42,720 nt of DNA, from assembly GCA_018992685.1 (NCBI GenBank), contig JACVGT010000005.1, positions 1-42,720 of the forward strand. Direction: 5' to 3'. The translations under genes were made by a program, and so were the position numbers. Source of the DNA: Theionarchaea archaeon. GTDB lineage: Archaea; Methanobacteriota_B; Thermococci; Methanofastidiosales; SZ-28-30. Position 1 is the first letter of the stretch; every line of letters begins with the position of its first letter. The notes beneath the pieces were generated by a model. That model did not search any database, was not told the origin of the DNA, and saw only the letters and a list, made by a program, of their open reading frames with translations. Shown here piece by piece: positions 29,674-34,111 of this stretch.

Positions 29674-29748
29674 GCCCGGGTGGTGTAGACCGGACTATCA
29701 TACGGGACTGTCACTCCCGTGACTCGGGTTCAAATCCCGGCCCGGGCG
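29674..29748 (+). tRNA. tRNA-Asp (anticodon GTC)
   Basis: A 75-base cloverleaf. The acceptor stem GCCCGGG pairs perfectly with CCCGGGC (29741-29747). The anticodon arm is CGGGA-CTGTCAC-TCCCG with anticodon GTC, and the T loop is GGTTCAAATCC. The discriminator base is G, as expected for tRNA-Asp, and the CCA end is not encoded (GCA follows). It lies 6 bases after the 5S rRNA, so the two may be one transcript. The accessory region begins right after it, but I found no repeated copy of its 3-prime end. Confidence 0.95.
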
Positions 29749-29949
29749 CATTCTCCGTGGCTTTGATGCTCTTCTCCCTTTTTATGGACTTTAATGTCAT
29801 GAAGCCTTTGCAGAAGGCTTTGATCGCTTGCAGAAAGCTTTACAATCCAAAAAATGTTATGATATATGGTATTCTCATATTTTTCTACGGAGAAATAGAG
29901 GATGAAATCCACCCTGATTTTTTGATTAAGAGAAATCATATTGTTTTGA

Positions 29950-30307
29950 CAAGATTAACTTGTTATATCCAGTGGTTGGTTGGTTATCAGCAGTGTCGTC
30001 CAGTCCCCGAACGTGTCGACCACATCAACTACCGAAGGAAAATGGCTCAGGGCAGGGAATGTCTTCGTTGGATCAGAGAAGCTACCAGATACGCGTACTC
30101 TCTGTAAATGGGAGTGGGTTTCATCCTCAAAGAGGGACCCAGAAGACAGCCCTGTTCCTGCATCTCGTGCAGATACTTGGAGACCGTGTTCCTAGAGTGT
30201 CGTGTGTTCCGAGCTATCTCATAGAGAGGTATCAGTGGGTCCTGGTACACCTGCTCATAAATGCGGTGGCACCGCTGCAGCCTATTCAGAAAGGATGTCT
30301 CACTCAT
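29950..30307 (-). pseudogene. Decayed helix-turn-helix protein (family A), frameshifted
   Basis: The first reading frame gives MSETSFLNRLQRCHRIYEQV and a helix-turn-helix-like segment (IPLYEIARNTRHSRNTVSKY) up to YREYAYLV. The sequence then continues in another frame as SFSDPTKTFPALSHFPSV, then DVVDTFGDWTTLLITNQPLDI, before a stop near 29950. The shift is at about 30080. A second copy of the same family is seen at 31360-32019 (YVYLVNSSNPLGLFREY aligns with YAYLV-x-FSDPTKTF). The protein family seems to be an archaeal regulator with an N-terminal helix-turn-helix; I do not recognise its name. Only the N-terminal portion remains here. Confidence 0.55.
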
Positions 30308-31359
30308 CAATTCCACCCATTAGAGCCAAATTTATCAGAGTCTCCCTCCATGCCTTCCAGGAAGAATAGGATCCTCCTGTCCACCACACATCCTCTGGTG
30401 AAGAGGTAAGATATTTGTTGATGAATGCTCCAATATTTCAGCAATTTTTCTGGTGTGAAGATTCCGCTCATTTTATGACTTTCTTGTGGATCTTTCTTTC
30501 CGTCGTGAGGACGGGGGTGAGAAACTGGGCACGGAGTGGTGAAGGGAGGTTCACAGCCCAGTTCCTCGAGGTAGTTCAAGCGGAAGCCTTTCCACCTGGA
30601 TCATGAGTTTGGTGGCGGTGATATCCTCTGTGTGAGCACCATACGAGGGATAGGAAGCGTGGTCTCAAAGGGAGCAATTCCGGGCTTCCATGAAGGATCG
30701 AACCCATTCTCTCAGTCCTTTCCGCTTCCACGTCACTGACTGTCATGATCACATGGTTGAGGCACTTGCTCTCCAGTTCATCGCGACAGTAGGTGCCAAT
30801 CAAGAGAAAAGTAGGTTATTTCGTTCACTGATAAGAAGCTCTCCTCATTAGGTCGTGCGATCTATCGCCAGTATCCAATACATTCCGTACACAATAGATT
30901 AATATACTTTAAGGCCGAAAAAATGTGACAGTACCCTATAAAAGGAAAGAAATCAAGAGGTGTGGGAGATCTGGGAAACAAGTCTAAGGAGGTAAAATCC
31001 ATGGAAATGGTAACTTGTTGCTGCTTTGGACCAGATCCCCACCTGTGACATCTAAATTCAGTGTTCTAGGAGCCAGAGCGATAACTATTCTCATACCAGT
31101 GTTTGCCGGCTCCCTCAAAGAGGAGAAAGATTCTCGAAATGAATCGCTCTTAGCTCGATTTCCTATACTTCACTATTTATTACACTAATATTTATGGTTT
31201 TCTATCAATTAAGTGCAAGAATCCCCATAAAAGAAGAGGAAAGAGATCTCATCCGGAAGGGCAACTTCTGGGGAGAACCCACGATGTTTTTTCTCCTAGT
31301 ACTCTTTCGTGAATTTATCCACCGTAAATCGAACATGAGAATTCTTGGAGTACTCCTGA
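30308..31359. other. Degenerate region without an intact gene
   Basis: About 1 kb with no gene that I can support. On the minus strand, 30576-30803 reads as broken coding sequence that makes sense only by switching frames (for example DELESKCLNHVIMTVSDVEA, then EWVRSFMEARN, then DITATKLMIQVERLPLELPR), so another pseudogene is likely. On the plus strand, a TATA box (CCTATAAAAGG, 30934-30944) and an AAGGAGGT site precede a 15-codon frame, MEMVTCCCFGPDPHL (31001-31048), possibly the stump of a deleted gene. Confidence 0.4.
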
Positions 31360-32019: not shown

Positions 32020-32958
32020 CTATGAGCCACTTCCAATAGCTGCATCTAAGCTTTCTTGAGTAGTTAGAGGCTTGTATTCTCCGCTGATGGCCCCCGCTCC
32101 AGGTTCATATCTGTATTGTTCGAAGACATCAAGGATAGTTCTGCTTATATTCCCCGATTCAAACTTTCCATGCTCCGAGAGTCTCCTGATTATTGGGGTG
32201 CAATCTCCGATTTCTGAGCCTATCCAATGTCTATGGTTTAGCTCGGCCTGGATATAGGTGGACCCGCCACCGCCAAAAGGATCCAAGACTATGTCGTGGT
32301 GAGAAGTCGACATTAGAATTGCTCTTTCTGGTATGATTGGCTTGAGTTCATTTGCCGATCTCTTCTTGAACTTCCTGTGTCTTACTGGAGAAGTGTCGTC
32401 CCAGAAATCAGTAAGATTCAGTCCTTTTGGATTTAGCTTGTCTCTGTGCCCTCCATAATCTCTTATTTCACCACCACAATGACGGCAGGTTGGTATTGGG
32501 GTCCTTAGTTTGTTGAAAGTCTTGGGTTCACCCTTTGTGTAGTACAAAAGACCGTAATGTGCAGGATACAGCTTCTTGCCTCTGGGAAACGTATTCTTCA
32601 TGCAAATGGCAATCCAGTGACGGAAGTCCAGGTACTGGTCCAAATAAGCACCGAATTGCACACACCACCTTGGAATATTATAAATGAACAAGCTTCCACC
32701 AAGTTTGAGAACTCTTATACACTCGTCCATCCAAGAGTATGCCCATTCCAGATACTCTTTGTCATTCATTGAATCATCAAATCTTTTCGTGTTGTAATTC
32801 TTCTTTAGATTGAAAGGTGGATCACAGAAAATCATGTCAATAGAAGAATTTCGAATAGTTGAAAGAAGATCCATACAGTCGCAGTTAAAAAGAACTCCCA
32901 GTCTCGAGACACATGCCGCACTCATGAAATCCTTCCCATTTGCACTCACTGAGATCAT
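32020..32958 (-). CDS. Type II DNA methyltransferase (beta class) of BamHI-like R-M system
   Basis: A 312-residue DNA amino-methyltransferase. Catalytic motif IV DPPFN is at 46-50 (with flanking DMIFC and LKKNYN), and the SAM-binding motif DPFGGGGST at 226-234 comes later, so the order IV before I is the beta class. A DPPF motif is more typical of N6-adenine enzymes than the SPPY of N4-cytosine enzymes such as M.BamHI. A probable zinc-binding CRHCGGE (158-164) lies in the target-recognition region, followed by NLTDFWDD. It should protect host DNA against the nuclease at 33449. A TATA-like TTTTAAAG (about 32980-32987) is 26 bases before ATG 32958. The stop is directly followed by a truncated pseudogene. 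Confidence 0.9.
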   Translation of the reverse strand: MISVSANGKDFMSAACVSRLGVLFNCDCMDLLSTIRNSSIDMIFCDPPFNLKKNYNTKRFDDSMNDKEYLEWAYSWMDECIRVLKLGGSLFIYNIPRWCVQFGAYLDQYLDFRHWIAICMKNTFPRGKKLYPAHYGLLYYTKGEPKTFNKLRTPIPTCRHCGGEIRDYGGHRDKLNPKGLNLTDFWDDTSPVRHRKFKKRSANELKPIIPERAILMSTSHHDIVLDPFGGGGSTYIQAELNHRHWIGSEIGDCTPIIRRLSEHGKFESGNISRTILDVFEQYRYEPGAGAISGEYKPLTTQESLDAAIGSGS

Positions 32959-33107
32959 GCATGTTCCTTGTCCCTGACCTTTAAAAGCTTGATGCTTTGT
33001 CTCTCTACCAACTCTCCAAGATTGTGAGCGAATAAGAACGGAGCCACTATTCATTTACTCTTGTAGAGGTAAAACAGTAAAGTTCCCAATATCAACCATA
33101 ATCTTTG

Positions 33108-33383
33108 TTATTCCCCTTGAATTCCTAATACAGCAGTGGAAATTTCCCTTCCTGTTTCTGTTAGGTCATATAGCCTACCTTTTCGAGCCTTTGGATTAAG
33201 ACACTCTACAAGATCTTGATCTCTTAGCCCTTTCAAGACATTGCTTACATGACCGATTCCAATCCCACAGATCTGGGACAATTGCTTTGGTGTCAAGGGG
33301 CTGTCTTTCAAGGCTAGAATGATCTTTCTTCGATAGATGCTTGCTAGCACATAGCCAATGCTTTTCCAGTCTTCTTCGTCCAT
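33108..33383 (-). CDS. Winged-helix regulator, probable controller of R-M system
   Basis: A 91-residue winged-helix protein of the ArsR/MarR type: SIGYVLASIYRRKIILALKDSPLTPKQLSQICGIGIGHVSNVLKGLRDQDLVECLNP, then the wing KGRLYDLTETGREI. It lies between the methyltransferase (149 bases downstream) and the divergent endonuclease gene and so probably takes the part that XRE-type C proteins play in other R-M systems. ATG 33383 follows an AT-rich TATA stretch at 33403-33412 and is leaderless. The 66 bases to the endonuclease start contain both promoters and a perfect palindrome. Confidence 0.82.
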   Translation of the reverse strand: MDEEDWKSIGYVLASIYRRKIILALKDSPLTPKQLSQICGIGIGHVSNVLKGLRDQDLVECLNPKARKGRLYDLTETGREISTAVLGIQGE

Positions 33384-33448
33384 TAGGCCACAATAGTAAT
33401 ATCATATTAAATATATAAACACACTTTACACTCTTGAAGAGTGTCTGA
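33384..33448. promoter_or_regulatory. Divergent R-M promoter with 17-bp palindromic operator
   Basis: An AT-rich block (33403-33420, TATATTTAATAT-like on one strand and TAAATATATAAAC on the other) can act as the TATA box for both genes. ACACTCTT-G-AAGAGTGT (33428-33444) is a perfect palindrome with 8-bp arms over the expected endonuclease transcription start (about 33440) and ends 4 bases before its ATG. Binding there would repress the nuclease and leave the regulator promoter open. Confidence 0.65.
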
Positions 33449-34111
33449 ATGGTAACTAACTTTTTATTTCTTTGTTTTTTTTCTATAGCTAGGGAGATTC
33501 TCTTGAAATATGTCAAGTTGAAAATACTGTTCTCATCAGACTCATTCATAGAATCAGAAGAATGGAAAATGATACATGGGCAACTGCAGAAAGCAATAGA
33601 ATCGGTCAAGTGGCCTCCTGGATCTGACAAATTTCTACTATATCCTGAATCTGGGAAGAAGAGAGGGATGGGGAATGGAGTCAGACCAATCAAGAGAGCT
33701 TTTATTAGAACACTAGGCAATTTTGGGTGGAATGTTGAAGAGAAGATTCAAATAACTAATAACAAGAGATGGGGAAAAGTCGACGTTTCAAGGAAATTGG
33801 ATAGCAAGTGGTTCGTGGTGGAATGGGAAACTGGTAATATCTCGTCTAGCCATCGGGCCCTTGAAAAAATGGCACTAGGAATGCTAACAAACGTATTTCT
33901 AGGAGGTATTCTTGTTGTGCCAACACGGGAAATGTACAATTATCTGACCGATAGAGTTGGCAACTTTGAAGAACTTGAACCTTATTTTCCCCTTTATATG
34001 AGTTTAAATTTCAAGGATGGTCTTTTTGGAATAATCGCGGTCGAACATGATGGATTAAGCGAAGATACCCCGAGAATACCAAAGGGAACAGATGGCAGAG
34101 CTCTGGTATGA
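33449..34111 (+). CDS. BamHI-like type II restriction endonuclease
   Basis: A 220-residue protein whose second half is strikingly like BamHI (213 residues). WETGNISSSHRALEKM (126-141) corresponds to BamHI FETGNISSAHRSMNKL, YNYLTDRVGNFEELEPYF (163-180) to YYLTDRVTNFEELEPYF, and IPKGTDG (210-216) to IPKGSDG. The active-site acids Asp94, Glu111 and Glu113 of BamHI match Asp112, Glu125 and Glu127 here (VDVSRK, VVEWETGN). Base-contact residues recalled for BamHI (Asn116, Ser118, Arg122, Asp154, Arg155, Asp196) all have equivalents, so cleavage at GGATCC is predicted. The N-terminus (1-35) is hydrophobic and may be partly untranslated; a later start is possible. It lies opposite the winged-helix gene and the methyltransferase. 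BamHI comparison is from memory, not a search. Confidence 0.88.
   Translation: MVTNFLFLCFFSIAREILLKYVKLKILFSSDSFIESEEWKMIHGQLQKAIESVKWPPGSDKFLLYPESGKKRGMGNGVRPIKRAFIRTLGNFGWNVEEKIQITNNKRWGKVDVSRKLDSKWFVVEWETGNISSSHRALEKMALGMLTNVFLGGILVVPTREMYNYLTDRVGNFEELEPYFPLYMSLNFKDGLFGIIAVEHDGLSEDTPRIPKGTDGRALV

Follow-up and report, generated by a model that had tools for sequence, protein, structure and literature searches.

The locus studied here lies in a stretch of 42,720 nucleotides from a Theionarchaea archaeon (contig JACVGT010000005.1 of assembly GCA_018992685.1), referred to below as the window. It contains genes for a DNA methyltransferase (M), a small regulator and a restriction endonuclease (R), the last of which is divergent from the other two (Table 1). 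The R protein belongs to the BamHI/OkrAI family. The PF02923 profile matches it at 2e-54 (score 183.8, cut-off 22.8), the OkrAI structure 3odh matches it at 5e-55 with about 50% identity, and it carries the active-site blocks E..ETGNISSSHR and YLTDRV.NF.ELEPYF, of which E..ETGNISS.HR is invariant in the family. The nuclease does not start at ATG 33449; relatives begin with MK(I/F/Y).. at the position of TTG 33503, behind GGGAG, and the protein read from there has the length of most relatives. M is matched by PF01555 (4e-34) and by the PADLOC model MTase_II (1e-98). Its open frame extends to 33054, although relatives have their N-termini at about its residue 33, and the first 32 codons are probably untranslated. 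The starts of both R and M thereby differ from those of the longest open frames.

Table 1. Coordinates of genes, predicted promoters and candidate sites of the cassette
Feature	Position	Strand	Description
M gene	32020..32958	-	PF01555 DNA methyltransferase, 312 aa; start ATG 32958
M promoter	32980..32993	-	BRE + TATA, hexamer 5' base 32986; leaderless, predicted start = ATG 32958
O2	33057..33068	+	ACTCTTGTAGAG; near copy of O1 core, 11/12 bases, between regulator and M genes
Regulator gene	33108..33383	-	Reads 33383-33108; 91-aa single-domain winged-helix protein
O3	33195..33213	-	TCTTGTAGAGTGTCTTAAT; within regulator gene, 17/19 identical to 33432-33450
Regulator promoter	33410..33426	-	Weak BRE 33426-33420, TATA hexamer 5' base 33419; predicted start ~33390, score 3.5
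O1	33428..33444		Perfect palindrome ACACTCTTGAAGAGTGT = ACACTCTT-G-AAGAGTGT; candidate operator common to divergent regulator and nuclease promoters
Nuclease promoter (favored)	33454..33469	+	BRE AACTAAC, TATA hexamer 33461; predicted start ~33490, score 4.3
Shine-Dalgarno-like GGGAG	33492..33496	+	Before TTG 33503; from sequence
R gene	33503..34111	+	BamHI/OkrAI-family endonuclease, 202 aa; start TTG 33503

By analogy with BamHI and OkrAI, the specificity of R and M is inferred to be GGATCC. In a genome sample of 442,720 bases (20 x 20 kb sampling), GGATCC occurs 72 times against 95.7 expected (O/E 0.75), and in the window 7 times against 7.0 expected, with no avoidance; strong avoidance by the genome was rejected in favor of mild depletion.

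The regulator is matched by the HTH_5/ArsR profile at 5e-6, above the cut-off, and more weakly by MarR-type profiles, which agrees with its earlier description as an ArsR/MarR-like winged-helix protein rather than an XRE protein. A profile search of the regulator gave no match to HTH_3, the helix-turn-helix of XRE C proteins, and an HMM of the C proteins of relatives had zero matches in the window. Nor does it qualify as an ArsR/SmtB metal sensor, since the curated metalloregulator model scores it at 27 bits, below the cut-off of 55. Single-sequence structure prediction reached a pLDDT of 48, too low for use. The regulator is a member of an archaeal family of winged-helix proteins of about 90 aa (alignment A2), with a full-length profile match of 106 bits (E 2e-30), well clear of the scores of other winged-helix proteins. 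In 396 archaeal genomes, searches with the single sequence and with a profile gave 46 members at 71-118 bits, frequently several per genome, and other winged-helix proteins form a thinner tail from about 65 bits down. No model in NCBIfam, Pfam or PADLOC names this family; the general Pfam model HTH_45 matches 28 of 39 of its sequences. The best match in genome G391 shares 54% identity with the regulator, and the nearest homolog looked at (L154, 54% identical) does not adjoin an R-M system. A search of viral contigs found no relative of the regulator. Elsewhere in the window, an 89-aa ORF at 30047-30316 (minus strand) weakly matches the family profile (2e-4); it lies in a low-coding region behind a tRNA-Asp gene (29674-29749), and a repeat of the tRNA 3' end, as expected of an integration site, was sought and not found.

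A scan of the genomes of 84,980 species and of viral contigs identified 89 loci with relatives of R, all bacterial or viral, suggesting that the R-M cassette was likely acquired from bacteria. No PF02923 gene was found among 115 other genomes of the window's phylum, and none of the phage records searched carries R. In the R tree the window stands on a long branch of unsure placement, so no source clade is claimed. In 51 of the 89 loci, R is immediately preceded by an XRE C gene. The divergent order M<- R-> occurs in 23 other loci, and in all 23 the XRE C gene lies between M and R (L056 and L086 were counted by eye). The C-box GACTATAGTC (GACT..AGTC) precedes the XRE C gene in many relatives, about 20, and is absent from 32900-33560 of the window. 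The winged-helix family, in turn, was found in none of the 89 loci.

Several of these loci have features of their own. Viral contigs carry BamHI-type R genes (L083-L091), mostly with M and several with an XRE C gene. Some bacterial loci, such as L003, L004, L007 and L008, contain a second methyltransferase of about 455 aa (SPPY motif) between R and M. L006 (4474-4776) and L011 (6008-6205) have no XRE C gene and contain a small MerR/excisionase-like HTH ORF beside the second methyltransferase, perhaps another type of controller. Two BamHI-family nuclease genes stand in tandem in L025 (2056-3341), and an additional ETGN-type ORF lies between C and R in L086 (2987-3877).

The winged-helix gene might be a chance neighbor of an R-M system that lost its XRE C protein and is now controller-free, like many cyanobacterial relatives. 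Indeed, 34 of the 86 relatives in the R tree have no XRE gene adjoining R, and most members of the regulator family stand alone. About three quarters do not adjoin R-M genes, which implies that R-M control is not the sole job of the family. Against a chance association, however, a PF01555 methyltransferase lies within 1 kb of 9 of the 46 members (8 without the window), whereas 0.13 would be expected across the 30 genomes that contain members or near members, an approximate figure that assumes random placement and treats contigs as one genome length. In addition, the order R<-/->regulator-M recurs in another archaeal locus, L180, in which a ThaI endonuclease gene (PF15514, 1e-93) is divergent from regulator and M in the layout of the window, and in the window itself the regulator is flanked by M and R, and the shared promoter region contains an operator-like palindrome. 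A chance neighbor is thus quite improbable, and since the family is tied to R-M genes beyond chance, "controller" is the best reading of the regulator. The search for the gene trio in other archaea, proposed in the earlier note, recovered the arrangement in L180 but with a ThaI rather than a BamHI-type nuclease.

The other members with R-M neighbors are variously arranged. In L165, L168 and L175 the regulator is followed by M on one strand, as regulator-M operons. In L182, L183 and L187 it overlaps an ORF of about 205 aa without a family match, and the methyltransferase is divergent or convergent. The related ORFs of L182 (1895-2503) and L187 (3546-4169, minus strand) have no Pfam or NCBIfam match, that of L187 also none in the PDB; they are candidate new restriction endonucleases. 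Outside the nine, family members have a D12-type neighbor in L162 and a Dcm-type methyltransferase neighbor in L192. The latter locus (G037:C1:1432500-1441500) contains, in series, the Dcm-type methyltransferase, a 349-aa ORF of no assigned family, the family member and a HhH-GPD glycosylase, and is likely an R-M locus equipped with a dedicated mismatch repair enzyme.

Promoters were predicted by a BRE/TATA matrix trained on genes of this genome with the cassette left out. In the 442,720 bases, TATA hexamers are most frequent 27-30 bases ahead of start codons without a Shine-Dalgarno sequence; the maximum for SD-like motifs is at -12 to -9. The M promoter scores 7.3, within the top 0.07% of positions. 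The scores of the regulator and nuclease promoters are modest and these two assignments could be wrong; an alternative leaderless box for the regulator, TTTAAT, lies at 33411. On the plus strand, the hexamer at 33461 is the top promoter in 33395-33480.

The earlier note had assumed that the palindrome O1 covers the nuclease transcription start, so that a repressor bound there would by itself delay the nuclease. An AT-rich plus-strand box (hexamer 33404) would indeed place the start at about 33433, inside O1, but it scores 2.4 against 4.3 for the hexamer at 33461, which also gives a standard short SD leader to TTG 33503. This gap is moderate, and the model's choice is a preference and not a proof. 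In the model, 8 bases separate O1 from the TATA hexamer of the regulator and 16 from that of R, so O1 is probably upstream of both divergent core promoters and not over the nuclease start. That O1 lies outside the regulator promoter, as also claimed before, holds narrowly, its end being 2 bases from the predicted regulator BRE.

The repressor model also meets a difficulty of logic. A repressor encoded on the incoming DNA is absent at entry, and therefore the nuclease of a naive cell would be made early rather than late; pure repression caps the level and does not delay it. Proteins of the ArsR/MarR type are mostly repressors, which speaks for a repressor at this site. Even so, a repressor on the nuclease start that alone produces the delay is unlikely.

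O1 itself is exactly the perfect 17-bp palindrome reported before, and occupies -61 to -45 relative to the regulator ATG. When the 119-bp region 33384-33502 is shuffled by dinucleotides, the chance of obtaining a perfect palindrome with arms of at least 8 and a gap of at most 1 is 0.7%, or 2.2% if gaps up to 6 are allowed. The whole window contains 4 palindromes of the stricter class against 1.55 expected; O1 is thus notable for its location, not for its existence. It is unique in the 3.03-Mb genome, with no second site at up to 1 mismatch, and sites with up to 3 mismatches are at background (30 against 29 in the control). The idea of a known regulon, with further copies of O1 across the genome, was dropped as no good copies were found.

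Possible further sites are present within the cassette. The core TCTTG(A/T)AGAG (TCTTGWAGAG) occurs 10 times in the 442,720 genome bases, and 3 of these fall within 33059-33441: in O1, at 33059-33068 (O2) and at 33213-33204 (O3). O3 is the best match to the 19-mer 33432-33450 in the same 442,720 bases. It also codes for the conserved LVECLNP stretch of the regulator, and its likeness to O1 may be a coding coincidence. For this reason, and because the pattern was picked after the copies had been seen, O2 and O3 are only suggestive as sites related to the regulator.

Alternatively, O1 may be a chance sequence or an RNA hairpin, the regulator binding elsewhere, for example at weak repeats near its TATA box. 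A chance of 0.7-2% in the region leaves room for such an origin, and the relatives have direct repeats and no palindromes. On the other side stand the two additional copies of the core (TCTTGTAGAG) in the cassette, a motif rare in the genome. As for a hairpin, the full O1 is absent from the favored transcripts, and RNA of the region folds no better than shuffles (z 0.00), so this role was rejected. Taken as a whole, this alternative appears doubtful, and O1 is retained as the candidate operator.

The repeats of the relatives were analyzed in the 100 bases upstream of 42 family genes (41 relatives and the window). Direct repeats are enriched at a period of 11 (combined z 8.4) and of 22 (z 5.7), and other lags are near zero. 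A lag-11 z above 2 was found in 15 of 42 family regions and in 13 of 148 control regions, taken from upstream of other genes in these loci, where the effect is slight (Fisher p = 7e-5, an optimistic value since some family members are closely related). Lag 22 by itself does not differ significantly between family and control regions (p = 0.12). The repeats adjoin the TATA box, as in L171 (GGTAATAGATC GGTAATAGATC GTTTATAAAA), pointing to autoregulation of the family genes. Upstream of the window regulator no such 11-bp repeats are present, the best match at lag 11 being 10/18. A search for an operator motif in the nearest orthologs (L093 etc.) gave no palindrome. Measured from the regulator TATA box, O1 lies where related genes have their tandem repeats and, judged by this placement, fills their slot. 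The absence of 11-bp repeats in the window means that O1 may be another kind of site or the site of another protein. The earlier note had taken related cassettes without a palindrome at this place as evidence against its model; this is partly the case, as related archaeal cassettes carry direct repeats spaced by 11 or 22 bp.

Drawing on the gene content, the start codons, the position and uniqueness of O1, the family membership of the regulator, the link of this family to R-M genes and the tandem repeats of relatives, we consider it rather probable that the regulator is an archaeal winged-helix counterpart of C proteins, which controls itself and the nuclease through one common operator and leaves M independent. 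What we infer from these observations is that the regulator binds O1, that it acts as controller of the R-M system, and in which direction it works. The three genes make up a BamHI/OkrAI-like Type II R-M system, likely of bacterial origin, that lacks the bacterial XRE controller and has a small protein of an archaeal winged-helix family in its place. A regulator dimer would bind O1, which separates the divergent promoters and lies a short distance upstream of each core promoter, and set the levels of regulator and nuclease jointly, and M would be made first and independently from a stronger leaderless promoter within the cassette. Should the regulator activate R, a naive cell that receives the cassette would make M first and R afterwards, as is the case for C proteins; should it repress both genes, only the final level would be capped. 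The upstream position of O1 and the weak R promoter favor activation, and the ArsR/MarR kinship favors repression. We slightly prefer a C-like delay, in which the regulator activates the weak nuclease promoter and limits the expression of its own gene, over plain repression of both. Of the controller role proposed earlier, the R-M system, the winged-helix protein in the slot of the XRE C gene and the R-M link of its family have held up, and the exact circuit has not.

Among the closest known systems are the XRE/HTH_3 C proteins (C.BamHI, C.PvuII), with a gene for a small DNA-binding protein between M and R, an intergenic operator (a candidate here), M expressible independently, and regulator and nuclease levels probably coupled. 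In contrast, the window regulator is a winged-helix protein, the GACTATAGTC C-box is lacking, the promoters are archaeal, and the regulator gene runs with M and divergently from R, whereas C genes run with R. Compared with BamHI/OkrAI R-M systems, R and its blocks and the PF01555 type of M are the same, but the host is archaeal and the controller has been swapped. C.Kpn2I is an XRE C protein that binds within its own gene as an elongation roadblock (PMC6237814); O3 would be a similar internal site if it is not a coding coincidence, though the window regulator is not of the XRE type. BrxR, a winged-helix/WYL regulator of BREX systems (PMC9122589), is likewise dedicated to a phage-restriction locus, but it is a WYL-domain protein of BREX and not a single-domain protein of 90 aa in a Type II R-M system. 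R-M control is described, in the searched portions of two reviews, as acting through XRE C proteins, methyltransferase repressors, methylation and antisense RNA (PMC12707154, PMC3874152); the same portions of this open-licence literature make no mention of a winged-helix or archaeal R-M controller, which is weak evidence.

The chances are about even that archaea own an R-M controller family of this kind: winged-helix proteins of about 90 aa without a name in Pfam, NCBIfam or PADLOC, which stand beside unrelated R-M systems (BamHI- and ThaI-type, D12- and Dcm-linked), bind next to their own TATA box, mostly at 11-bp tandem repeats and here at a palindrome, and fill the role of XRE C proteins by convergent evolution. 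R-M gene control was elucidated in bacteria, with sigma-factor promoters and XRE proteins. If the present reading is true, this family would be a first candidate for the safe installation of a lethal nuclease by archaea, and the window would be a naturally occurring example of an R-M system that, on transfer, traded its bacterial controller for a local one. It would also provide a clear operator prediction for archaeal transcription systems.
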